A DNA stretch of 64,000 bases from Plantactinospora sp. BC1 (lineage in GTDB: Bacteria; Actinomycetota; Actinomycetes; Mycobacteriales; Micromonosporaceae): contig NZ_CP028158.1 of assembly GCF_003030345.1 (NCBI RefSeq), positions 4,588,001-4,652,000 of the forward strand. The letters are read 5' to 3'. This document shows positions 1,465-56,526 of the stretch, piece after piece (position 1 is the first letter of the stretch; the number at the start of each line of letters is the position of its first letter). The notes under the pieces are model-generated. The model searched no databases. It was not told the DNA's origin and worked only from the letters and a program-made list of their open reading frames with translations. The position numbers were made by a program, and so were the translations under genes.

Positions 1465-2037
1465 ATGACGACCACCAGGGGTGAGGAACGGGCCGCCGTC
1501 AGGCCGGCCAGCCTCAGGTTGCCGGGGATCGTGCTGGGGGTGGGGCTCGGCGGATTCGTCGACGGCATCCTGCTGCACCAGATCCTGCAATGGCACCACC
1601 TGCTCAGCAGCACCAACACCGACAACGTCGGGGTGCGGTACTACGACCCGAAGACCGTACCCGGGCTGGAGATGAACACCCTCTGGGACGGCATCTTCCA
1701 CGCGGTCTGCTGGCTGGCCGTCCTGATCGGCCTGGCCATCCTCTATTCCCGGGTGACCCACCACCGCCGCCGGGTCTGGACCTCCCGGGTCCTGTGGGGC
1801 TGGATCCTGGTCGGCTGGGGGCTGTTCAACCTCGTCGAAGGCATCCTCGACCACCACATCCTCGGCATCCACCACGTCTATCCGGGCCCGGACCAGCTCT
1901 GGTGGGACATCGCCTTCCTCGTCCTCGGCGCGCTGCTGGTCGTCGGCGGCTGGCTGCTCCAGCGCGGCGGACGCTCGTTCGACCCCGTCTCCGGGCCCGA
2001 CGCGCCGACCGGCGGGCGGGCGCCCCGGAACACCTGA
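1465..2037 (+). CDS. DUF2243 family membrane protein
   Basis: A 190-residue polytopic membrane protein of unknown function. It has the family's signature GGFVDGILLHQILQWHHLLS in the first membrane segment, a second His-rich segment (EGILDHHILGIHHV), and about four hydrophobic helices. The conserved His residues suggest metal or heme handling, but that is inference. ATG 1465 was chosen because a purine-rich GGAGGCGGAGG ribosome site sits just upstream; the frame is open further 5' but without a conserved domain. The stop overlaps the start of the CtaG-like gene (TGATG), so the two are probably translated together and act in one process. Confidence 0.85.
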   Translation: MTTTRGEERAAVRPASLRLPGIVLGVGLGGFVDGILLHQILQWHHLLSSTNTDNVGVRYYDPKTVPGLEMNTLWDGIFHAVCWLAVLIGLAILYSRVTHHRRRVWTSRVLWGWILVGWGLFNLVEGILDHHILGIHHVYPGPDQLWWDIAFLVLGALLVVGGWLLQRGGRSFDPVSGPDAPTGGRAPRNT

Positions 2038-2888
2038 TGGGTCACGAGCCACACCACCTGCCCGAGCACGGGGCCGGCATCGACGTGTTCGGGGTACTGC
2101 TGCCCGCCGTCGTCCTGCTGCTCTGTGCCGGCCTCTACCTCCGGCTGGCCCACCGGGCACGGCGGCGCAACCCGGCGCTGGGCTGGAGCCGGTGGCGCAC
2201 CCTGAGTTTCGGCGTCGGGCTGCTCCTGCTGGCGGTGGCGCTGCTGCCGCCGGTCGCCACCTTCGCGCACACCGACTTCCGGGGTCACATGGTCGCGCAC
2301 CTGCTCGTCGGCATGTACGCCCCGCTCGCCCTGGTGCTCGGTGCCCCGGTCACCCTGCTGCTGCGTACGCTGCCCGCGCGGCGCGGCCGGCGGCTGACCG
2401 GGCTGCTGCACAGCCGTCCCGCCCGGATGCTGACCCACCCGGCAACCGCCTGGCTGCTCTCCACCGGCAGTCTCGTGCCGCTCTACTTCACCCCGCTCTA
2501 CGACACCGCGACGAGCCACCCGGCCGGGCACTGGCTGCTGCACCTCCACTTCCTGCTCGCCGGTTGCCTCTTCGCGCACGCCATCGCCGGCCCCGATCCG
2601 GCGCCCGCCCGGCCCGGCGTGCGTACCCGGCTGGTCTACCTCGGCTGCGGCATCGCGCTGCACGCCGTCGTCTCGCAACTGATGTACGGCGGCTACTGGG
2701 TGCAGATCGCCGCACCCGCCGTCGAGGTCCGGACGGGCGCCGAACTCATGTACTACGGCGGCGACATCGCCGAACTGCTGCTCGCCGCCGCCCTGGTCGC
2801 CACCTGGCGCCCCGAACGCCGCCCGCAACCCGGTGCCCGACCGCAGCGGCGGGCCGCCCCGGCTCCGGCCGGCGGCAGCGGGCTCTGA
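2037..2888 (+). CDS. CtaG-like cytochrome c oxidase assembly membrane protein
   Basis: A 283-residue membrane protein of the caa3-type CtaG family (PF09678), whose members help deliver copper to or assemble the terminal oxidase. Visible are about seven hydrophobic segments and conserved His-containing pieces: FRGHMVAHLLVGMYAPL, the HWLLHLHFLLAG helix, and a late MYYGGDIAEL segment. The start overlaps the DUF2243 stop by one base. No copper chaperone is adjacent. The tail from about residue 255 is Arg/Pro-rich and probably cytoplasmic. Family assignment is good; the specific oxidase partner is inferred only. Confidence 0.8.
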   Translation: MGHEPHHLPEHGAGIDVFGVLLPAVVLLLCAGLYLRLAHRARRRNPALGWSRWRTLSFGVGLLLLAVALLPPVATFAHTDFRGHMVAHLLVGMYAPLALVLGAPVTLLLRTLPARRGRRLTGLLHSRPARMLTHPATAWLLSTGSLVPLYFTPLYDTATSHPAGHWLLHLHFLLAGCLFAHAIAGPDPAPARPGVRTRLVYLGCGIALHAVVSQLMYGGYWVQIAAPAVEVRTGAELMYYGGDIAELLLAAALVATWRPERRPQPGARPQRRAAPAPAGGSGL

Positions 2889-2981: not shown

Positions 2982-3135
2982 GCGCAGACTGTCGAGCTGG
3001 GTGCAGAGACGGGGCAGGCGCCGAATGTCGGAGCGCGTGGGTGCACAGACGGGGCAGCTCGACAGTCTCCGTGCCCGGGAGTGCCTACCCGGCCGGCCGG
3101 AGACCGGCGATGCCCTGACGGCTCGGTACGCCTAG
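2982..3135 (-). repeat. Interspersed palindromic repeat, copy A
   Basis: A 14-bp perfect inverted repeat (AGACTGTCGAGCTG at 2986-2999, its complement at 3055-3068) encloses 55 bases holding two near-identical 20-base direct repeats. Homology to copy B (45892-46041, opposite strand) extends a further 67 bases to 3135. On the minus strand the element begins 9 bases after the stop of the gene at 3145-3645. It fills most of the 256-base gap between that gene and the CtaG-like gene. No coding sense is evident. Confidence 0.85.
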
Positions 3136-3144
3136 AAGAGGGGT

Positions 3145-3645
3145 TCAGCCGGTGCGGAACAGGTCGGCCCGGGACTGCTCCCGGGGTTCGCGCTCGTCCC
3201 GGGACCACCACCAGGCGTAGCTGATCGCCCCGGGGCGGGGTGTGGTCAGCACGATCCGGGCCACCAGCGGTCCCTCGTACGCGGTGAACTGGCCGGGGGT
3301 GCGCTGGGTGAAGCGGACCATGCCGGGCAGTTCGAGGCTGGCGACGTGCAGTTCGAGTCGACCGCCGGCCCCGAGGACCAGCACGCTGTGCTCGACGTGC
3401 CGCAGCCCGTCGCTGTCGGTGGTCGCCTCGTAGTCCAGAATGGCGGCACGTCCGTCGAGGGCGGTCCCCACCACCATCCGCGCCACGAACGGCCCGCTCT
3501 CCGGGCCGTCGCCCCGGCCCCGGTACACCCCGGTCGCGGCGGTGAGGCGGTGCAGTACGTCGGTCTCGGCGGGCACGGCGACACCGTAGCGTCCGGGCGC
3601 CAGCCGCTCCGGCCGAGCTACTGCCGCGTTGACGGTACTGCGCAT
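3145..3645 (-). CDS. Conserved-looking hypothetical protein, 166 aa
   Basis: I do not recognise a family with confidence. The protein is soluble, with no signal peptide or membrane helix. It opens with ERLAPGRYGV and alternates short hydrophobic strands with Gly/Arg turns (GVYRGRGDGPESGPFVARMVVG, then LDYEATTDSDGLRHVEHSVLVLG). This suggests an all-beta fold, possibly a small lipocalin-like or DUF1579-like barrel; that is inference. It is divergent from the PadR gene with only 20 bases between starts, so the pair share a promoter region and PadR may control it. The palindromic repeat follows its 3' end. Confidence 0.6.
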   Translation of the reverse strand: MRSTVNAAVARPERLAPGRYGVAVPAETDVLHRLTAATGVYRGRGDGPESGPFVARMVVGTALDGRAAILDYEATTDSDGLRHVEHSVLVLGAGGRLELHVASLELPGMVRFTQRTPGQFTAYEGPLVARIVLTTPRPGAISYAWWWSRDEREPREQSRADLFRTG

Positions 3646-44216: not shown

Positions 44217-45392
44217 ATGGATTCCCGCACGGGTCTGCCCGTTGTCGGCATGGTGGGCGGCGGCCAACTGGCCCGGATGACCCACCAGGCCGCGATCGCC
44301 CTCGGCCAGTCGCTCCGCGTCCTCGCGCTCACCCCCGAGGACGGGGCCGCACTGGTCGCCGCCGACGTCCGGTACGGCGAACACACCGATCTCGCCGCGC
44401 TGCGCGACTTCGCCGACGGCGCCGACGTGGTCACCTTCGACCACGAGCACGTGCCGACCGAGCACGTCCGGGCGCTGGCCGAGGCCGGGGTGACCGTCTA
44501 TCCGCCCGCCGACGCGCTGCTGCACGCCCAGGACAAGCGGGTCATGCGGGAGCGGCTGACCGAGCTGGGTGCCCCGGTGCCGCGCTGGCGGCCGGTCGCC
44601 GAACCGGGCGACCTGGTCGGCTTCGGTGCCGAGCTGGGCTGGCCGGTGATCCTGAAGGCGGCCCGGGGCGGCTACGACGGCCGGGGCGTCTGGGTCGTCT
44701 CCGGCCCGGCCGAGGCCGCCGAGCTGGTCGGCACACTGCGCGCCGCCGGGACCGAACTGATCGCCGAGGAGCGGGTCGCGCTCCGCCGGGAGCTGGCGGT
44801 GCAGGTCGCCCGCTCGCCGTTCGGCCAGGTGGCGGCGTACCCGGTGGTGGAGACCGTGCAGCGGGACGGCATCTGCGTGCAGGTGCTGGCGCCGGCACCC
44901 CGGCTGCCGGAGGAGGTGGCGCTGCGGGCCCAGCAGCTCGCGATCGACCTGGCCACCGCGCTCGGCGTGGTCGGGCTGCTGGCGGTGGAGCTGTTCGAGG
45001 TGGCCGGCCCGGACGGCGAGCCGGCGCTGGTCGTCAACGAGCTGGCGATGCGGCCGCACAACTCCGGGCACTGGACGATCGAGGGTTCCCGGACCTCCCA
45101 GTTCGAGCAGCACCTGCGGGCGGTGCTCGACTATCCGATGGGGGACACCGCGCTGACCGCCCCGGTGGTGGTGATGGCCAACGTGCTCGGCGGCCCGGAC
45201 GGCGGCATGTCGATCGACGAGCGGCTGCACCACCTCTTCGCCGAGGACCCGGGTGCCAAGGTGCACCTCTACGGCAAGCAGGTCCGGCCCGGCCGGAAGA
45301 TCGGGCACGTCACGGTGCTCGGTGACGATCTGGAGAAGGTACGTGCCCGGGCGGCTCGCGCCGCCTGGTGGCTGCGGGAGGGGCACGAGTGA
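44217..45392 (+). CDS. purK: 5-(carboxyamino)imidazole ribonucleotide synthase
   Basis: A 391-residue ATP-grasp enzyme that carboxylates AIR with bicarbonate in purine synthesis. The N-terminal [11 protein letters not shown] dinucleotide-like loop, the ATP-grasp lysine in [17 protein letters not shown], and [17 protein letters not shown] near residue 280 are family marks. A TAGGCT -10 (44201-44206) overlaps the stop of the DUF255 gene, leaving a leader of only a few bases. It is coupled to purE by overlap. Confidence 0.94.
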
Positions 45393-45895
45393 CGGAGTCG
45401 GCGCCGCCGGTCGGTCTGATCATGGGTAGCGACTCGGACTGGCCGGTGATGGGTGCGGCGGCCGAGGCGCTGGCCGAGTTCGGCGTCGGCTACGAGGTCG
45501 GGGTGGTGTCGGCGCACCGCACTCCGGTGAAGATGATCGACTATGCCCAGGCCGCCGCCGGCCGGGGCATCCGGGTGATCATCGCGGGGGCGGGCGGGGC
45601 CGCCGCGCTCCCCGGGATGGTGGCCTCGGCCACCCCGCTGCCGGTGATCGGGGTACCGGTGCCGCTCAAGCACCTCGACGGGCTGGACTCGCTGCTCTCC
45701 ATCGTGCAGATGCCGGCCGGCATCCCGGTGGCGACCGTGTCGATCGGCAACGGTCGCAACGCCGGCCTGCTGGCGGTACGCATCCTGGCCGCCTCGGACG
45801 AGACACTGCGGGACCGGATGGTGGCGTACCAGGCCGAGCTGGAGACGCTGGTCGCGCAGAAGGAAGCCGCGCTGCGGGCCAGCCTCGGCGGCTAG
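45389..45895 (+). CDS. purE: 5-(carboxyamino)imidazole ribonucleotide mutase
   Basis: A 168-residue enzyme that moves the carboxylate from N5 to C4 of AIR, the step after PurK. The signature [13 protein letters not shown] is at the N-terminus, and [11 protein letters not shown] has the catalytic His. [14 protein letters not shown] follows. GTG 45389 overlaps the purK stop. The palindromic repeat copy B starts at the stop codon itself. Confidence 0.94.
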
Positions 45896-46041
45896 GCGTA
45901 CCGAGCCAGCCAGGGCGTTGCCGGCTTCCGGCCGGTCGGGTCGGCACCACCCGCTGCGGAGACTGTCGAGCTGCCCCGTCTGTGCGCCCACGCGCTCCGG
46001 CACTCTGCCCCGTCTCTGCACCCAGCTCGACAGTCTGCGCG
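45892..46041 (+). repeat. Interspersed palindromic repeat, copy B
   Basis: The same element as copy A on the opposite strand. The 14-bp arms are 45960-45973 and 46023-46036. The interior carries two 20-base direct repeats (45971-45990, 46005-46024; 18 of 20 identical). The element starts with CTAGGCGTACCGAGCC at the purE stop. The following 46045-46150 is a low-complexity CCGCC run. No gene lies in the 258-base gap. Confidence 0.85.
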
Positions 46042-46153
46042 CGGCACTCCCTCCTGCCGCCGCCCCGCCGCTCCGTCGCCCTGCCGCCCCGTCGCCCCGC
46101 CGCCCCGCCGGGGGCACGCGCCGGGTGGCGGGCGCGGTCAGCGGCGGGTGCGG

Positions 46154-49100
46154 TCAGCGCATCCCGCGTACCGCCCGGAAGCGCTCCTGGGTGCGGCGCC
46201 GGTTCTCGTTGCTGGCCCCGAACGCCAGCAGCAGCAGGCCGACCGGGATCAGCACCAGCCACGGCCCGAAGCTGAACAGGGCGCGCAGCGCGGCCAGCGC
46301 GGTCACCACCGCCCCGATGATCACCGGGGCCTGCTGCCGCCGGTTGGATCCCCAGATCAGCGTGGCCACCCCGCCGAGCAGCAGCAGCACCTGACGGATC
46401 GCGCTGTCGTTGCCGGCCAGCACGATCACCAGGGTGGGCAGGAACGCCGCCACCAGCGCCGGCCCGTACGCCACCCAACTGCTCAGGTCGGCGCGGTGCC
46501 GCATCTCCAGCAGGCCGACCAGCAGGGCCAGGACGGCGAACGCCAGCGTGTACGCCTCCGGCAGCGCCACGTCGGCGAGCGCCATCAGCATCCACCAGGC
46601 GACGACCTCACAACCGACCGCCGACCAGAAGAGCGTGCGCCGCTCGGCCGTACGACGGTACGGCCGTACCGCCGCCATGCCGAGCACGGCGCCCCAGGCG
46701 GCGAGCAGCGCGGCGATGTGCCGGGGTGAGTCGTAGGCGAGCGCGGCGGCGATGAGCGCGGCAGCGTACCCGCTCCACTCCACCGTGGTCGCCTCGCGGA
46801 TCGCCTCCGGCCGGCGCAGTCGGGGCAGCATCGCCGCGACCAGCAGCAGCACCGCGCCCACCGCCAGCACCCCGAACGCGGACCAGGCCGGGTCGAGCCC
46901 GAGCACCAGCCCGAGGGTGAAGACGAAGGTCTGGGCCATCACCGAGGCGAAGAGCCAGCCGAGGATGCGGGCGTTCTGGGTCCGGCCGCCGAGCGCGGCG
47001 ACCGCGCCGACCCCCACCGCCGCGCCCAGGGTGAACAGGGTCAGCTCCCGGCTGGCCAGCGCGCCGGCCAGCCCGGCCCCACCGGCGGCCAGCCCGATGC
47101 CGAAGACCAGGATCCGGGTCAGCCGCAGCGAGCGGGCGACCTCGGCGTCCGGCGGCGGCGGGGTCAGGGCCAGCCCGAGCATCGCGATGGTGAAGACGGC
47201 GAGCGCCGCCAGGGTGCCGTTCGGCCAGGCCAGGTCGAGCGAGATCGGGGTGATCAGCAGGGTGATCGCGGCGCCGGGCAGCACCACGGGTACGGCCCGG
47301 GCCGGCCGTCCGCCGCTGAACCCGGTGGCGGCCAGCCCGGCCGCGATGGTCAGCAGCAGCGCCGCCAGCACGTTGCCGGGGTCGACGGCACCGGGCTCCG
47401 GGTCGACGAGCGCGGCCGGCACCCCGTCCCAGATCTGGGTGAGCGTCTGGTACGGCTCGACCAGCGCCACCACCAGGGCAGGCGCCAGCGCGGCCACCGC
47501 CAGGGCGGTCGGCAGCGCCGCCGCGAGCATCGCCCCGACGGCCGGGCTGACCGACCAGCGGCCGCCCCGCGCCGGCTCGGGCAGCCGGCGCAGCGCGCCG
47601 CCGAGCATCACCGACCAGCGTCGGATCGGCTCCCGCAGCGGGGTCGGGGCCGGGGTGACCGCCCGGATCAGCTCGGCGAGCACCCCGAGCAGTACGGCCG
47701 CGGCGGCGTAGACGCCCCAGGGCAGGCCGGTGAAGAGCGCCGCCACCGAGGTCGCGGTGGCACCGCCGACGATGCCCATCGTGGCGTACGGGAGGTATTG
47801 CGGGACCTGGCGGCGGACCAGTCCGGTCACCGCGACGCCGAGGCTCGCCCCGGCGAGGGTGGCCAGCACCACCACCTCGGCCGGCCGGTGCAGCGCGGCG
47901 GCGAGCGAGGCGAGCGCCCCGCTGAGCGCGAAGAGCGCCCCACCGGCGGCGAGCCCGCCGATCTGGGCGGTCTGCGGCGGCATCGACCAGGTGTCGGCCT
48001 CGTCCGCCGGGCCGGAGAGGGTACCGACGACCCGGGCCAGGATGGCGACGACCGCCCCGATCAGCGCGACGATGCCGAGCGCGGCGGCGGTCGTCCACGG
48101 CCGGACCAGGCTCGCCCCGACCGCGTGCAGGGCCACGACGCCGGCCACGGTGGCCCGGGCCAGCCCGGCCCGGGGATCGCTGGCGACGACCGAACTCACC
48201 CCGTAGACGGTGGCGACCGCCCCGCCGACCACGATCGGGGACCACCAGGGCAGCCCGAACGCCGCCGGGGTGCCGATGGTGGCGAGTCCGACACAGACGG
48301 CGGCGACGTCGTACGCCCACGGCCGGGGCAGGGCGATCGCGGCGGCGCCGGCCAGCAGGAGCAGCGCGACCGGGGCCTGCCAGCCGGTGCCGGTCTCGCT
48401 GACGTGCCACTGCGCGAGGTCGGCCGCCCAGAGCCGGCCCGGGGTGGCCAGCACCTGGAGGCCGCCGCTCAGCGCCGTCCAGCCGGCGAGCAGCGCCACG
48501 ATGCCGCCGGTCAGCGCGATGCCGAGGATCGGTCCGCGCCGCCACTCGACCGGCATGGCCCGGATTCCGGCGGCCACCACCAGGATGAGGAAGGCGGCGG
48601 CGGCCAGCTCGGCGCCGTCGCCGAGGATGCCGGCGATCCGGGCGAGGGTGCCGACCAGGGCGGCGGTGACCGCCGCGGCGGCGATGTCCGAGCCGTCGAG
48701 CAGCCGGTCCGCCCGCCGGCCGGAGTCGATCGACGGCGCCAGCACCAGCAGTACCGCGCTGACCAGCAGCAGCCCGCCGACCAGGGTGTCCGGCAGGGTG
48801 GCGCCGGGTGCGCCGAAGGCCGCCGCGGTGACCGCGAGTGCGCCGAGGCCGGTACCGAGGGCCAGCGGCACGCTGATCTGCCGCTGGGCGACCTGGGTCA
48901 CCGCCGCGTAGCAGAGCACCGCGCAGACGGCCAGGAAGCTGGCGGCGAGGACCGGTTCGGTGGCCTCCCGTACCGACAGGGCGGTCGGGGTGGGGTCGAC
49001 GGGTACCGCCGAGGCGACGAAGGCCGCCACCGCACCGGGGAAGGCGAACGCCGCCCCGCCGGCCGCCCAGTCGCCGACCAGGCCGGACCACCGGCCCGCC

Positions 49101-51199
49101 GGGGTGGTACGGGCGAGCGGGGCGAGCGCCACCAGCGCACCGCCGACGGCGAGCGCGAAGAGTACGGCCGCGGTCAGGCCGGGCCGGGCCACCGAGGCGG
49201 CCGCCCCGGCGAGCCCCACCACGGCGGCGGCGACGGCGTGGGTCAGCGCGGCCCGCCGGGTCTCGGCGGTCAGCCCGACCACCCCGATGGCGACGGCGAC
49301 CAGCACCGGTGGCCAGGGAGCGGCGACCCAGCCGAGCCCGAACGAGGCGGGCATGGCGAGTGCGGTCAGCGCCGCACCGACCACGGCGAACTCGCGGCGC
49401 ACCTCCGGCGGCGAGGAGAGCACGGCGGCGATGGTGAGCAGCAGGGCGGTGACGGCGAGCTGCCAGGAGGTGTCGCCGACCCCGGCGGCGAGCTTTCCGG
49501 GGTATTCGGAGAGATCGGCCTCCCAGACCGGGAGCGCGGCCCGGATCGGGGCCAGGGCGGCCCGCAGCGCCCCGCCGGCCACCACGATGCCGATGACGAT
49601 CAGGGCGGCGGCGGAGGCGAGTTGCGGCCCGCGCCGGGCCGCCTCGGGGACCGCGCGTACGCCGAGCCCGGTCAGCGCGATGACGGCGGCGATCACCACC
49701 AGGGCCCGCCCCGGCAGGGCGACCGCGGCGACCCGGCCGGCGGCGCCGATCACGGCCAGGGTCAGGATCCCGGCGCCGATGTCCGGCAGGGGCGGCCGGC
49801 GCAGCACCAGCGCACCGACCATGCCGACCCCGGCGGCGAGCAGCAGCGCCAGGCCGGCCCGGGACGCGCCCGGTACGGTGTCGGCGTTCACCAGCGCGAT
49901 GACGGCGCAGACCACGGCGACGGCGAAGGCCAGCCCGTGCAGCGCCCAGGCCAGTTCCCGGACCCAGGGGGTGCGGGTCGTCGACCGGACGCCGGGGGTG
50001 CGGACCCGCTTCGTCGGCCCGCCCAGCGCCGGATCGGCCTGGACGACCGCGTCCGCCTCCTCGGGAAAGGTCTCCGGCCGATCCGGGCCGATCCCGTCCG
50101 GGTCGGTCGGGTCGCCGCCCACCCGTCCCGGCCGCTCGTCGGGGCGGACTCTCGGCGTGCCGGGCGGGGCGGTCACCGGCACCTCGGGGCCGAACCGGAA
50201 CCGGGCCGGCCAGCCGGTCAGCCGCCCGTCGTCACCGAAGAGCCGACCGAGATAGAGGTTGCCGACCGCCACCGCCGCCAGTACCACGGCCCAGCCGGCC
50301 GGCCCGGTGACGAAGGAGTACGCCAGCAGCGGCAGGATCGGCTGCACGGCGAGTACGGCCGCGTAGCGGGGGGCGTTCAGCCCGGTCACCGAGGCGTACC
50401 CGGCGGCGACGGCGGCGGTGAGCAGGAAGGTCAGCCCGGCGAAGAGCGACCCGGGCAGTCCACTGTCGCCGAACCGGTCGACGGTCCAGAGCGAGTACCC
50501 GGTCAGCGGCACCAGCAGCAGCCCGACCGCCGCGATGGTCTCGGCGGTGGCGCTCAACCCGCGCTGGGCCACCCGGGGCGGTACGGCCAGCATCAGCGCG
50601 GTGGCCAGCACCAGGATCGCGACCCGGCTGAAGTCGTCCAGCGAGCTGAGCGCGACCGCGACGAAGACCACCGCCGCGATGCCGAGCAGCAGCGCCCCGA
50701 GCCCGAGCAGGATGTTCTGCACCTCGCGGGTGGAGGCCTCGGGTCGGGCCTTCCCGCCGTCGTCCCAGCTCGGCTCGGCGCCGGCCGGTGGGGGTGGCGG
50801 CGGTGGGGGCGGTGTGCTGGGTGTGGTCCGGTCGGGGCCGCTCCTCGGCTGTCGGGGTACCCGGGGTGGCGGCCCGCCCGGGGCGGTCCCGGGCGCGGCG
50901 GTCGGTGGGCGCCGGTTGGCCTTGCGCCGGATCACCCGGCGCGGCTTGGTGTTCTGCTTGCGGCGCTGGTCCGCCGCGTGCGACAGGATGTCCCGCTGGA
51001 AGAGCGCCGCCTGCATCTGCGAGGCGATCGTCTTCTGCTCCCTGGCGAGCGCCGCCTCGCGGATCTTCATCTCGGCGATGGAGCGCTCGATCCGGGCGAC
51101 GTCGTCGGCCCACCGGAGCTGCTCGGTCCCGCAGTGCGGGCAGTGTGGTGCCGGCTCGATCTCCCGGCCGCACGAGGAGCACTGGTACGTCGTACTCAC
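46154..51199 (-). CDS. Giant zinc-ribbon polytopic membrane protein, 1681 aa
   Basis: An unusually large integral membrane protein. Residues 7-23 form a zinc ribbon (CSSC and CPHC). A coiled coil (about 30-85) and a basic Pro-rich segment with a run of nine or ten Pro follow (about 90-145). The remaining 1500 residues are almost wholly hydrophobic, with several dozen helices in repeating Ala/Gly/Val/Leu-rich bundles and one acidic cytoplasmic loop near 335-400. GTG 51199 follows GGAGGGGG. It is conserved in type in actinobacteria, with no proven function. It stands alone. Confidence 0.82.
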   Translation of the reverse strand: MSTTYQCSSCGREIEPAPHCPHCGTEQLRWADDVARIERSIAEMKIREAALAREQKTIASQMQAALFQRDILSHAADQRRKQNTKPRRVIRRKANRRPPTAAPGTAPGGPPPRVPRQPRSGPDRTTPSTPPPPPPPPPAGAEPSWDDGGKARPEASTREVQNILLGLGALLLGIAAVVFVAVALSSLDDFSRVAILVLATALMLAVPPRVAQRGLSATAETIAAVGLLLVPLTGYSLWTVDRFGDSGLPGSLFAGLTFLLTAAVAAGYASVTGLNAPRYAAVLAVQPILPLLAYSFVTGPAGWAVVLAAVAVGNLYLGRLFGDDGRLTGWPARFRFGPEVPVTAPPGTPRVRPDERPGRVGGDPTDPDGIGPDRPETFPEEADAVVQADPALGGPTKRVRTPGVRSTTRTPWVRELAWALHGLAFAVAVVCAVIALVNADTVPGASRAGLALLLAAGVGMVGALVLRRPPLPDIGAGILTLAVIGAAGRVAAVALPGRALVVIAAVIALTGLGVRAVPEAARRGPQLASAAALIVIGIVVAGGALRAALAPIRAALPVWEADLSEYPGKLAAGVGDTSWQLAVTALLLTIAAVLSSPPEVRREFAVVGAALTALAMPASFGLGWVAAPWPPVLVAVAIGVVGLTAETRRAALTHAVAAAVVGLAGAAASVARPGLTAAVLFALAVGGALVALAPLARTTPAGRWSGLVGDWAAGGAAFAFPGAVAAFVASAVPVDPTPTALSVREATEPVLAASFLAVCAVLCYAAVTQVAQRQISVPLALGTGLGALAVTAAAFGAPGATLPDTLVGGLLLVSAVLLVLAPSIDSGRRADRLLDGSDIAAAAVTAALVGTLARIAGILGDGAELAAAAFLILVVAAGIRAMPVEWRRGPILGIALTGGIVALLAGWTALSGGLQVLATPGRLWAADLAQWHVSETGTGWQAPVALLLLAGAAAIALPRPWAYDVAAVCVGLATIGTPAAFGLPWWSPIVVGGAVATVYGVSSVVASDPRAGLARATVAGVVALHAVGASLVRPWTTAAALGIVALIGAVVAILARVVGTLSGPADEADTWSMPPQTAQIGGLAAGGALFALSGALASLAAALHRPAEVVVLATLAGASLGVAVTGLVRRQVPQYLPYATMGIVGGATATSVAALFTGLPWGVYAAAAVLLGVLAELIRAVTPAPTPLREPIRRWSVMLGGALRRLPEPARGGRWSVSPAVGAMLAAALPTALAVAALAPALVVALVEPYQTLTQIWDGVPAALVDPEPGAVDPGNVLAALLLTIAAGLAATGFSGGRPARAVPVVLPGAAITLLITPISLDLAWPNGTLAALAVFTIAMLGLALTPPPPDAEVARSLRLTRILVFGIGLAAGGAGLAGALASRELTLFTLGAAVGVGAVAALGGRTQNARILGWLFASVMAQTFVFTLGLVLGLDPAWSAFGVLAVGAVLLLVAAMLPRLRRPEAIREATTVEWSGYAAALIAAALAYDSPRHIAALLAAWGAVLGMAAVRPYRRTAERRTLFWSAVGCEVVAWWMLMALADVALPEAYTLAFAVLALLVGLLEMRHRADLSSWVAYGPALVAAFLPTLVIVLAGNDSAIRQVLLLLGGVATLIWGSNRRQQAPVIIGAVVTALAALRALFSFGPWLVLIPVGLLLLAFGASNENRRRTQERFRAVRGMR

Positions 51200-53287: not shown

Positions 53288-56140
53288 ATGACGGTTCCGA
53301 AGTTCCCCCCGACGCCCGCTCCGAAGCCTCCCAGATCGATGTCCCGGCGCCTCGGCGGGGCAGCTGTCGCCCTGCTGCTCGCCCCGCTGCCGCTGCTGCC
53401 CGGCGCCCCGGCCGCCGCCCACCCGGGCAAGCCGCCGACCCCGGCCGGATGCAGCCAGGACCCGTCCGCCCGGCTCACCGGGGTACCGAGCCCGGAGCGG
53501 CACCTCGGCTTCCCGCTCGGCCTCGGCCAGCAGCGGGTGGTCACCGACGACGAGATCCGCTCGTACCTCGGTGCCGTCGACGCCGCCTCCGACCGGGTCG
53601 TCACCGGCAACGTCGGCAACAGCGTGCTCGGCCAGTCGATGCCGTACGCGATCGTCTCCGACCCCGGCCACCTGCGCCGGGGCGAGCTGGAGAAGATCGC
53701 CGAGAACATCCGCGATCTGCGCGACCCGCGCAGGCTGTCGGACCGGAAGGCGGCGGAGATCGCCGCGAAGGGCCCCGCGATCGTCTGGGTGACCGGCAAC
53801 GTGCACGGCGGCGAGAAGTCCGGCGGCGACGCCGCGCTGAAGACCCTCTACGAGCTGGCCGCCGGCCTCTCCTGTGAGGTACGCGAGCGCAACCGGAACC
53901 TCGTCACGATCATCGTGCCGACGCAGAACCCGGACGGCCGGGACGCCAGCCGCCGGCAGAACGAGTACGGCTTCGACCTGAACCGGGACTGGTTCTCCCG
54001 TACCCAGCCGGAGACCGACGCCAAGCTGGAGATGCTGCGCCGCTATCCGCCGCAGGTCTACGTCGACGCGCACGAGATGGGCGGCGACGAGTACTTCTTC
54101 CCGCCGAACGCGGACCCGATCCACCACGAGATCTCCGACGAGGCGGTCGACTGGATCAACCGGATCGGCGCGGCCAACGCCGAGGGCTTCGGCTACAACG
54201 GCGCCTGCACCGAGACGGTCACCAGCGAGTGCTACTTCAACTACGACACCTACGACATGTTCTTCATGGGGTACGGCGACACGGTGCCGGCCACCGGCTT
54301 CGGCGCCGCCGGGATGACGTACGAGAAGGGCAGCTCCTCGGCGGTCCAGGACCGGGTGCAGCAGCAGTTCAACACCCAGTGGGCAACCGTCGGCTGGGCC
54401 TCGGAGAACCGGCGGGAGATCCTGTCGGACTACTTCCGGATCTGGTCCGACGCCCTGGCCGAGGGTCGGGCCGGCAAGCTCCAGCCGAACGAGGTCGTGC
54501 AGCCGACCAACGAGGTCCAGTTCCCGGTGCCGGACATCACCGTCCGGTCGTACTTCCTGCTGCCGAACCGGCAGCTCGGCGACGTACGCCAGCTCGTCGA
54601 GCGGCTGCGCCGGATGGACGTCGAGGTGTACCGGCTGACCAAGCCGGTGAAGGTGCCGAACGCGAAGATCTTCGGCGGCCGGTCGGCCCGGAACCACACC
54701 GTGCCGGCGGGCGCGTACTGGATCCCGATGGAGCAGCCGCAGAAGCACTGGATCCAGGCGATCCTGGGCGAGGACCCGTACGTCCCGTTCCCGTACTTCT
54801 ACGACGTCTCGTCCTGGAGCAACCCGCTGCTGATGGGCGTGGAGACGATCTACACCGGTGACCGGCTCTCGCCGCGGGCGGAACGGGTCCGCGGCATCGA
54901 CGGCGGGCGCGGCGGGTACGCGCCGAGGCACGGCTCGTACGCGTACCCGCTGGACTCGGCGGCGGCGGCCGAGCTGACCTTCAAGCTGCTCGGCGCGGGC
55001 GTCGAACTGCGCCGCGACCAGCGCAGCGGCGTCGTCACCCTGCCGGCGGCGGCCCTGACCGGCTCGCACGACCGGCTCGCCCGCTCCCTCGGGGTGACCC
55101 TGACCGCGAGCTGGCGCGGCGTCACCGGCACCCGGCTGGCCCTGCCCGACGTCGGCCTCTACGCCGGCACCGGCATCTCCACCACCTCCGGCTCGCACGG
55201 CGAGGCCCGGTACGTCCTCGGCGACCAGTGGGGCCTCGACCTCAAGCCGGTGAGCACGGCGGACATCAACGACAACACCGCCGCCTTCACCGGCCGGACC
55301 GTCCTGCTGGTGCCGGACGGCAGCAACCCGACCGGCGGCCTCACCGCCGCCGGCCAGGCCAACCTGCGGGCCTGGGTGGCGGCCGGCGGCACCTACGTCG
55401 GGCTGCGCAACCAGGGCACCCGGATGGCCCGCTCCGCCGGGCTCACCTCGACGGTCGAGCTGCCGAAGCCGACCGACTACACGGTGATCGGCTCGCACCT
55501 GCGGGTCGACGTCGACCGGAGCAGCCCGGTCGGGCTGGGCCGGCCGGCCGAGGACTTCGAGTTCAACAACAACGACTCGATCCTGTCGCCGAGCACCACG
55601 GGTAGGAACGTGCTGACGTACCCGGCCGACGGGCGGTTCTGGCTCAACGGCTTCACCGAGCACGCGGACGCGCTCAAGGGCACGGTCGCGCTGGTCGACG
55701 AGCCGACCGGGGCCGGCCGGGCCGTGCTGTTCGCGTTCAACCCGCTGTTCCGGGCGTACAACGAGAGCGGGCTGCACCTGGTCGCCAACGCGCTGCTGGC
55801 ACCGCGTACCGCCCCGGCGGTCGCGGCGTCCCCGGGTGCCCGGGCGGCGGCTCCGGCCGTACCCCCGGCGCGGGCCTCGGCCGCAGCGGCGCCGGCGGCG
55901 GAGAACCTGGGTGGTGAATGGCGGCCGATCTCCATCCGGGTCGCCGCGACCGACCTGGACCGGACCCGGGCGATCGTCGCCCGGCACACCGGCGACGCCC
56001 AGGTCGGCACGGCGGGCGGTACGGCGTACCTGACCATCCCCAACCCGGAGGGTCTGACGTCGGACGAGCACCCGTTCCTGCGTGAACTGGTACGCGAGAT
56101 CCGCGCGGCGGGCATTCCGCTGCGTTCCGTCGTCGGCTAG
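53288..56140 (+). CDS. Secreted M14 family zinc carboxypeptidase
   Basis: A 950-residue exported metallopeptidase. A signal peptide (about 17-44, SRRLGGAAVALLLAPLPLL) ends at PAAAH. The catalytic domain spans about 80-390. Zinc ligands are H173 and E176 (NVHGGEKSGG) and H262 (VDAHEMGG). The substrate-binding Asn/Arg pair is in FDLNRDW, and the catalytic Glu is E346 (MTYEKGSS). The remaining 550 residues are beta-rich domains with a late Ala/Pro linker near 850. It probably degrades peptides or cell-wall stems outside the cell. An ATG at 53339 is a less likely start. Confidence 0.9.
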   Translation: MTVPKFPPTPAPKPPRSMSRRLGGAAVALLLAPLPLLPGAPAAAHPGKPPTPAGCSQDPSARLTGVPSPERHLGFPLGLGQQRVVTDDEIRSYLGAVDAASDRVVTGNVGNSVLGQSMPYAIVSDPGHLRRGELEKIAENIRDLRDPRRLSDRKAAEIAAKGPAIVWVTGNVHGGEKSGGDAALKTLYELAAGLSCEVRERNRNLVTIIVPTQNPDGRDASRRQNEYGFDLNRDWFSRTQPETDAKLEMLRRYPPQVYVDAHEMGGDEYFFPPNADPIHHEISDEAVDWINRIGAANAEGFGYNGACTETVTSECYFNYDTYDMFFMGYGDTVPATGFGAAGMTYEKGSSSAVQDRVQQQFNTQWATVGWASENRREILSDYFRIWSDALAEGRAGKLQPNEVVQPTNEVQFPVPDITVRSYFLLPNRQLGDVRQLVERLRRMDVEVYRLTKPVKVPNAKIFGGRSARNHTVPAGAYWIPMEQPQKHWIQAILGEDPYVPFPYFYDVSSWSNPLLMGVETIYTGDRLSPRAERVRGIDGGRGGYAPRHGSYAYPLDSAAAAELTFKLLGAGVELRRDQRSGVVTLPAAALTGSHDRLARSLGVTLTASWRGVTGTRLALPDVGLYAGTGISTTSGSHGEARYVLGDQWGLDLKPVSTADINDNTAAFTGRTVLLVPDGSNPTGGLTAAGQANLRAWVAAGGTYVGLRNQGTRMARSAGLTSTVELPKPTDYTVIGSHLRVDVDRSSPVGLGRPAEDFEFNNNDSILSPSTTGRNVLTYPADGRFWLNGFTEHADALKGTVALVDEPTGAGRAVLFAFNPLFRAYNESGLHLVANALLAPRTAPAVAASPGARAAAPAVPPARASAAAAPAAENLGGEWRPISIRVAATDLDRTRAIVARHTGDAQVGTAGGTAYLTIPNPEGLTSDEHPFLRELVREIRAAGIPLRSVVG

Positions 56141-56157: not shown

Positions 56158-56189
56158 GTGGAGGGTGGGAGACATCTCCCACCCTCCAC
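56158..56189 (+). terminator. Hairpin after the carboxypeptidase
   Basis: A 15-bp perfect stem (56158-56172 with 56175-56189), 18 bases after the stop. It is directly followed by palindromic repeat copy C. Confidence 0.75.
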
Positions 56190-56190
56190 T

Positions 56191-56240
56191 GACTGTCGAG
56201 CTGCCCCGTTTCTGCGCCCAGCTCGACAGCCTCCGCGCGT
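56191..56240 (+). repeat. Interspersed palindromic repeat, copy C (short form)
   Basis: The same arms as copies A and B (56191-56203 and 56219-56231, one mismatch), but with only one of the two internal 20-base units, so the loop is 15 bases. This is what deletion between the two direct repeats would give. The flanking TCTGCGC/CTCCGCGC parts still match. Confidence 0.78.
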
Positions 56241-56284
56241 CGGCTCGGCTCGCGCCGCACTCCCGGTGGCGGAAGCGCCAAGTC

Positions 56285-56339
56285 CAAGATTCTTGGAGAT
56301 CTATGGCGCGTGGTGAACCACAGATCACCAAGAATCTTG
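56285..56339. repeat. Nested inverted repeat, AT-rich for this genome
   Basis: 18-base arms (56285-56302 and 56322-56339, 17 of 18 paired) flank a 5-bp palindrome (GTGGT-GA-ACCAC, 56310-56321). Each outer arm also contains an odd-centred palindrome, CAAGATTCTTG or CAAGAATCTTG. It may be a small inverted-repeat element or a double operator. It lies in the 386-base gap between the carboxypeptidase and the acyl-CoA dehydrogenase. Confidence 0.65.
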
Positions 56340-56526
56340 AAGTACGCCGCGCACGGCGACGCGGAGGTCGGCTACGGCGACGTCCCTTCCCGGCGGCGCT
56401 CTCCGGCCGGCCTCGGCCCTCCCGGCGCAGCAGGTGGGGAGGGCTGTCGGGACTAGGTTACTGGCGGGTATGGTTCGGATATCCGGGGCGTGGGGCCGCC
56501 GGAGACGAGTGCCGGGGAGGGCCGCG

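Follow-up and report, generated by a model that had tools for sequence, protein, structure and literature searches.

Three Copies of a Palindromic Repeat Lie at Gene Ends in the Window

The window analyzed here, a 64-kb stretch at positions 4588001–4652000 of the single 8.33-Mb chromosome of a Plantactinospora soil bacterium (G000, the "own genome" below), contains three copies of a palindromic repeat (Table 1). Gene calls are those of a simple codon-usage finder rather than a curated annotation. Copy 1 is flanked by genes at 2037–2888 (+) and 3145–3645 (−), and copy 2 by purE at 45389–45895 (+) and a gene at 46154–51199 (−), whereas copy 3 lies between tandem genes, one ending at 56140 and the next starting at 56509. 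Pfam backs the purE (AIRC), M14 carboxypeptidase, CtaG-like, and acyl-CoA dehydrogenase neighbors.

The initial annotation described inverted arms in all three copies, with two 20-bp direct repeats in each long copy and one in the short copy. This description holds, the 14-bp arms of copy 3 (56190–56203 and 56219–56232) carrying one mismatch each. Its coordinates are also right, since copies 1 and 2 align over ∼151 bp at 85% identity, including 68 bp to the left of the arm and starting at CTAG.

Table 1. Coordinates of the three repeat copies and an adjacent hairpin in the window
Feature	Position	Strand	Context or basis
Copy 1, long form with left flank in common with copy 2 (begins at CTAG 3132–3135)	2982–3135	−	between convergent genes
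Copy 1 right arm, 14-mer AGACTGTCGAGCTG	2986–2999	+	arm match
Copy 1 left arm	3055–3068	−	arm match
Copy 1 right unit CTGCCCCGTCTCTGCACCCA	2998–3017	−	genome 4590998–4591017
Copy 1 left unit CTGCCCCGTCTGTGCACCCA	3038–3057	−	genome 4591038–4591057
Copy 2, long form with left flank in common with copy 1	45892–46042	+	between convergent genes
Copy 2 left arm	45960–45973	+	arm match
Copy 2 right arm	46023–46036	−	arm match
Copy 2 left unit CTGCCCCGTCTGTGCGCCCA	45971–45990	+	genome 4633971–4633990
Copy 2 right unit CTGCCCCGTCTCTGCACCCA	46005–46024	+	genome 4634005–4634024
Copy 3, short form of 41 bp with one unit (56201–56220) between its arms	56191–56231	+	unit and arm matches
Carboxypeptidase-gene hairpin, terminator-like, immediately upstream of copy 3 and separate from it	56158–56189	+	also in G006 and G002, element-free there

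The Family Has Asymmetric Ends and an Expendable Interior

Classified by their ends, the elements of the own genome number 48, at 46 loci; the set over four Plantactinospora species comprises 120. The arm GACTGTCGAGCTG has 101 matches in the own genome with at most one mismatch, versus 21 for its reversed control, and matches to the 20-bp unit fall at the same places. In the 64-kb window, 23 arm matches with at most three mismatches were found against 6.7 expected, a count reached in none of 100 shuffles.

The repeat arms are 13 bp long (GACTGTCGAGCTG//CAGCTCGACAGTC). Within each lies a 20-bp direct unit, the two units enclosing an expendable interior, and a weakly conserved 24-bp flank lies outside. 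The left end reads GACTGTCGAGCTG-CCCCGYYTGTGCNCCCR and the right end, read inward, GACTGTCGAGCTG-GGTGCACAGRCGGGGCA, so that the units within the two arms usually run in the same direction. Beyond the arms, conservation falls to background by ∼24 bp, and most copies have in common only the core and these ∼24 bp. The shortest elements, of 41 bp, consist of two arms and a single unit, and the longest reach ∼370 bp; most are 41–335 bp long and non-coding, with terminal inverted repeats, and strong hairpins are predicted for them. The near-invariant left end, GACTGTCGAGCTGCCCCGYYTGTGCNCCC, is often kept without the right end: the own genome has 15 left-only copies and a single right-only copy. This ratio comes from a set found by arms and is unbiased, whereas a search pattern based on the left end supplied the sets from G003, P. 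endophytica (G006), and P. mayteni (G002), which biases their left/right counts.

The interior is poorly conserved. It contains a 19-bp minisatellite resembling the 20-bp unit at L038 and a 36-bp duplication, equal to unit plus spacer, at L112; at L032 and L060, the left ends are repeated. One-unit forms were found at the same site as a longer form in another species for three pairs (L067/L278, L047/L174, and L068/L112), and for a fourth, L065/L140, with synteny on one side only. A further candidate pair, L054/L119, was dropped because its copies, when placed by the flanking genes, are separated by more than 1 kb. The same-site orthologues support gain and loss of sequence between direct units and lend weight to the earlier proposal that the short form arose by recombination between them.

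Elements Are Enriched near Gene Ends without Orientation Bias

In the loci sampled, gaps between convergent genes account for 11.8% of the intergenic bases, yet they hold 31 of 82 copies (38%) in G000 and G003 (p = 1.4e-9). On the same measure, divergent-gene gaps are depleted, with 12 of the 82 copies versus 38.4% expected (p = 3.6e-6). Between tandem genes in the four species, 39 of 51 copies are nearer the upstream stop than the downstream start (p = 2e-4). The gene-end bias noticed in the window is confirmed.

The same cannot be said of orientation. The three window copies had been read as sharing one orientation relative to their upstream gene, yet copies 1 and 2 lie between convergent genes and only copy 3 is in a tandem context. 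Across the four species, tandem copies are oriented with the genes in 21 cases and against them in 29 (n = 50, p = 0.32), so the proposed orientation bias is refuted, and with it goes the main support for a directional 3′-end RNA element. This outcome was among those that the initial annotation had named as counting against it. By hand count, the strands of successive elements on the own chromosome look clustered, in ∼15 runs versus 23 expected; a similar count in G003 gave no clear clustering.

The Left End Does Not Decay

Counted from the unit, with no arm required, left arms in the own genome show zero, one, or two mismatches in 40, 11, and 1 cases, none has three to five, and chance matches begin at six. 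Right arms include a few intermediates, with 18, 6, and 4 in the same classes, two with four mismatches and one with five. Substitutions are mostly at arm positions 1, 2, and 7. Of 46 arm changes, 45 are one-sided and the other is two-sided but non-complementary, which argues that sequence is kept rather than pairing; we infer that arm sequence would matter more than arm pairing.

In 45 comparisons of orthologous ends, some of which pair several arms of one element and so are not fully independent, identity is 96% in the arms and 83% in the units; the outer 25–104 bp (57%, versus 54% in mismatched pairs) and the interior (56% versus 50%) are near the mismatched level. Just outside the arms, the first 8 nt are more complementary within than between elements (z = 3.9; z = 3.5 over 13 nt), and farther out than 13 nt complementarity is not above the between-element level. 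A long compensatory stem was rejected, only these first 8–13 nt pairing above chance, as were local hairpins in the outer flanks, which are weak. The missing decay intermediates of the left arm are not expected for dead mobile copies and leave room for a host protein that would bind the left end.

The Family Is Restricted to One Clade and Absent from Many Orthologous Sites

The end motif has 51 matches in the own genome, 60 in G003, 32 in P. endophytica, and 9 in P. mayteni. It has none in the congeners G001, G004, and G005, and at most one match, with a mismatch, elsewhere. Three of six congeners thus carry the family, and the other three and other genera do not. Identity of the purE-site neighbor gene to that of the own genome is 94% in G002, 93% in G003, 92% in G006, 89% in G004, 88% in G001, and 86% in G005. 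These values suggest that the carriers are its closest relatives, so a single origin or arrival in the clade would be the simplest reading. No match was found among viral contigs or plasmids that would indicate an origin there.

Several orthologous sites are empty. The own gap is 504 bp versus 25 and 11 bp in empty orthologues at L040, 198 versus 29 and 31 bp at L058, and 404 versus 58, 69, and 61 bp at L060. At purE, where the own gap is ∼258 bp, the element is absent in six relatives, and the carboxypeptidase 3′ end lacks it in G006 and G002.

Subfamily I occupies seven own loci and at least four G003 loci at unrelated positions, its copies having ∼330–370 bp in common, with ∼36-bp outer inverted repeats visible in two own copies. 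One of its members, L040, has CTAG at both ends and a ∼25-bp direct repeat around the copy. No target-site duplication is consistent over copies, and at sites other than L040 the intergenic DNA is too diverged for such a comparison. In some subfamily I copies, CTAG contains the stop codon of the neighboring gene, and copy 2 starts at a CTAG that contains the purE stop codon; such ends may account for part of the association with stop codons. A reading of the core as nested in a bigger MITE was rejected. Subfamily I was never seen without the core, which makes it a subfamily rather than the general rule, and the other copies are without distant inverted repeats.

In G003, a 1.25-kb block comprising a secreted-protein gene and an element is present at three loci (L149, L152, and L158) with 98–99% identity, its edge 24–34 bp beyond the right arm. 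The gene has no Pfam match, and a fourth copy of it, at L292, lacks the element. Together, empty sites, recent subfamilies of near-identical copies at unrelated loci, and this gene-plus-element block support dispersal, although the dispersed blocks could be the product of ordinary recombination. Genome counts, empty sites, and context statistics likewise support the initial suggestion of a dispersed, gene-end-biased, and apparently mobile element.

Two left-left pairs of 1.2–1.3 kb, L031 (MDMPI gene) and L072 (DUF5753 and DUF397), are exceptions to the size range and looked like passenger-gene transposons. At L031, four species retain the left end, and the right side varies. At L072 (4408–5347), the DUF5753 gene starts directly inside the left unit, without the N-terminal part that its relative in P. 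endophytica (L113) has, as though sequence had been deleted from the element into the gene. The missing 5′ end and the variable right side make two half-elements around genes likelier than cargo transposons. Elsewhere in P. endophytica, a tandem repeat beside a left-only element (L094, 6609–6830) apparently derives from the 3′ end of the neighboring coding sequence (GGTCAGCGACCGTCCGCGAGCGCCAGGTCC).

Relatives Carry a Second Palindrome Family at These Gene Ends

Two of the three window loci have, in relatives, a palindrome of another family, GGAAGGGGCCCTTC, just after the stop codon. This palindrome (AAGGAAGGGCCCCTTCTTATCGC...GAAGGGGCCC) is unrelated in sequence to the family studied here and follows purE in G001, G003, and G004 and the carboxypeptidase gene in G001 and G004 (L181, L183, L184, L222, and L223). 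It has 269, 374, and 66 matches in the three species without the studied family. Among the carriers, G003 has 66, G002 one, and G000 and G006 none, so that the second family is essentially absent from the carriers other than G003, which has both. The resulting distributions are almost complementary over the genus, which is no more than suggestive of turnover in a common slot, two sites being a small number. Beyond Plantactinospora, the second family is plentiful in one more genus (G016, with 315 matches).

It is conceivable, if rather doubtful, that the 30 bp of the left end form a recognition site under constraint in the host chromosome and that, as species form, one palindrome family takes the place of another at a given gene end. 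Such replacement, if true, would imply a common gene-end function that interchangeable repeats fulfill and a putative protein serves.

The carboxypeptidase 3′ end has other inverted repeats. The terminator-like hairpin before copy 3 is near-perfect, and in G006 several of its stem bases differ in step, such that the stem is kept. At 56283–56350 of the window, ∼50 bp after copy 3, is an inverted repeat based on CAAGATTCTTGG, and stretches like it are found again, on either strand, in the own genome and several congeners. In G002 (L220), an inverted repeat, GGATCCTTTCAACATGAACC...GGTTGAAAGATTC, lies between the carboxypeptidase stop codon and the conserved terminator-like hairpin.

Candidate Mechanisms

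We favor, as probable if by no means assured, a model in which these are lineage-specific, non-autonomous, REP/MITE-like extragenic palindromes copied to many intergenic sites in one Plantactinospora clade. A protein acting in trans, in the simplest case the enzyme responsible for copying, would recognize the left end by its specific sequence. Gene-end bias would arise because selection removes insertions from promoter regions. Interiors vary by tandem duplication, with a one-unit form at some sites where the orthologue has more. A search for Y1 transposases throughout the carrier genomes, and for transposases in the element neighborhoods, found no mobilizing enzyme, either between the ends or recurrently near them. 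This counts against the model, as do the undecayed left arms, the absence of a consistent target-site duplication, and the chance that ordinary recombination produced the dispersed blocks.

The non-decaying left end can also be explained by a host-adapted DNA-binding network, in which it binds a chromosomal protein (a nucleoid, supercoiling, or regulatory factor) and is selected site by site at gene ends, much as has been proposed for REP/BIME arrays, with mobility being past history. The absence of decay intermediates, arms conserved at orthologous sites between near-random flanks, the excess of left-only over right-only copies in the own genome, and another palindrome family at the same gene ends in relatives all agree with such a network. 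However, many sites are empty in close relatives, three congeners live without the family, and the binding protein is only hypothetical; we consider it unlikely, while giving it real weight. An RNA element at 3′ ends, whose transcribed palindrome would terminate or stabilize mRNAs, in both directions between convergent genes, is improbable. It would account for the enrichment at gene ends, the strong predicted hairpins, and the complementarity within elements just outside the arms. Yet orientation is unbiased, 12 of 82 copies lie between divergent genes, arm changes are uncompensated, and the covariance models of Rfam 15 gave no match above gathering score in six element-bearing loci. An intrinsic terminator, with its G+C-rich hairpin, T-run, and direction, fits poorly: the case for this role is weak because the elements have no preferred direction, the flank consensus has no T-run, left-only copies are unable to form the hairpin, and copy 3 is preceded by a terminator-like hairpin distinct from it.

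That the family reflects chance, or was carried along in larger segmental duplications, is very improbable. The initial annotation would have been undermined by a family of only three copies inside larger duplicated blocks; instead there are 46 loci, and genome and window counts are far above controls. Some subfamilies do travel as larger blocks, with 300–1250 bp in common, but most copies are alike over little more than the core. We give least credence of all to REPIN-type elements mobilized by a RAYT (Y1) transposase, which is hardly plausible here even though the family is palindromic, extragenic, and gene-end-biased, with paired inverted ends around a variable spacer. The PF01797 profile finds no Y1 transposase in the four carriers (G000, G002, G003, and G006), and its sole match in the genus is in G001, which is element-free. 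Within the reach of the Pfam model, Y1/RAYT transposases are thus excluded, though a highly diverged RAYT could escape it. In the end consensus, moreover, neither a GTAG nor a CGTC tag adjoins the palindrome.

Relation to Known Repeat Families

Extragenic palindromes are well studied in proteobacteria. We found no published description of the repeat studied here, nor, among the papers searched, one with its arm sequence. The anatomy of the family is resolved and its clade defined; it has empty sites and a non-decaying left end, and no transposase of the expected class was found. Whether an enzyme, a host protein, or both hold such repeats at gene ends can be put to the test with it.

As in REP/BIME and REPIN families, the copies are short, multicopy extragenic palindromes, and REPs too lie mainly between convergent and co-directional genes (PMC3733652). 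The CGTC REPs are likewise without a dedicated transposase. A survey of GTAG and CGTC repeats lists other phyla and does not mention Actinobacteria in its text (PMC3733652). We have not filed the family as REP/REPIN because the tag, sought in the position-wise end consensus, and the Y1 transposase were looked for and not found; asymmetric left and right ends, direct internal units, and an interior variable up to hundreds of bases set it further apart.

Like MITEs, the elements are small, non-coding, and dispersed, with inverted ends and empty sites in relatives, and subfamily I adds its outer inverted repeats and terminal CTAG. In contrast to MITEs, the left end does not decay, no consistent target-site duplication was seen, and no autonomous element with the same ends was found; on the last two grounds, the family is not filed as a strict MITE. 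The BOX elements of pneumococcus, boxA-boxB(n)-boxC, are also intergenic, their conserved ends enclosing internal modules that vary in number. They are an architectural analogue only, differing in sequence, host phylum, and module layout. Considered as a whole, the behavior of the Plantactinospora family is closest to that of REP/BIME and MITE elements.
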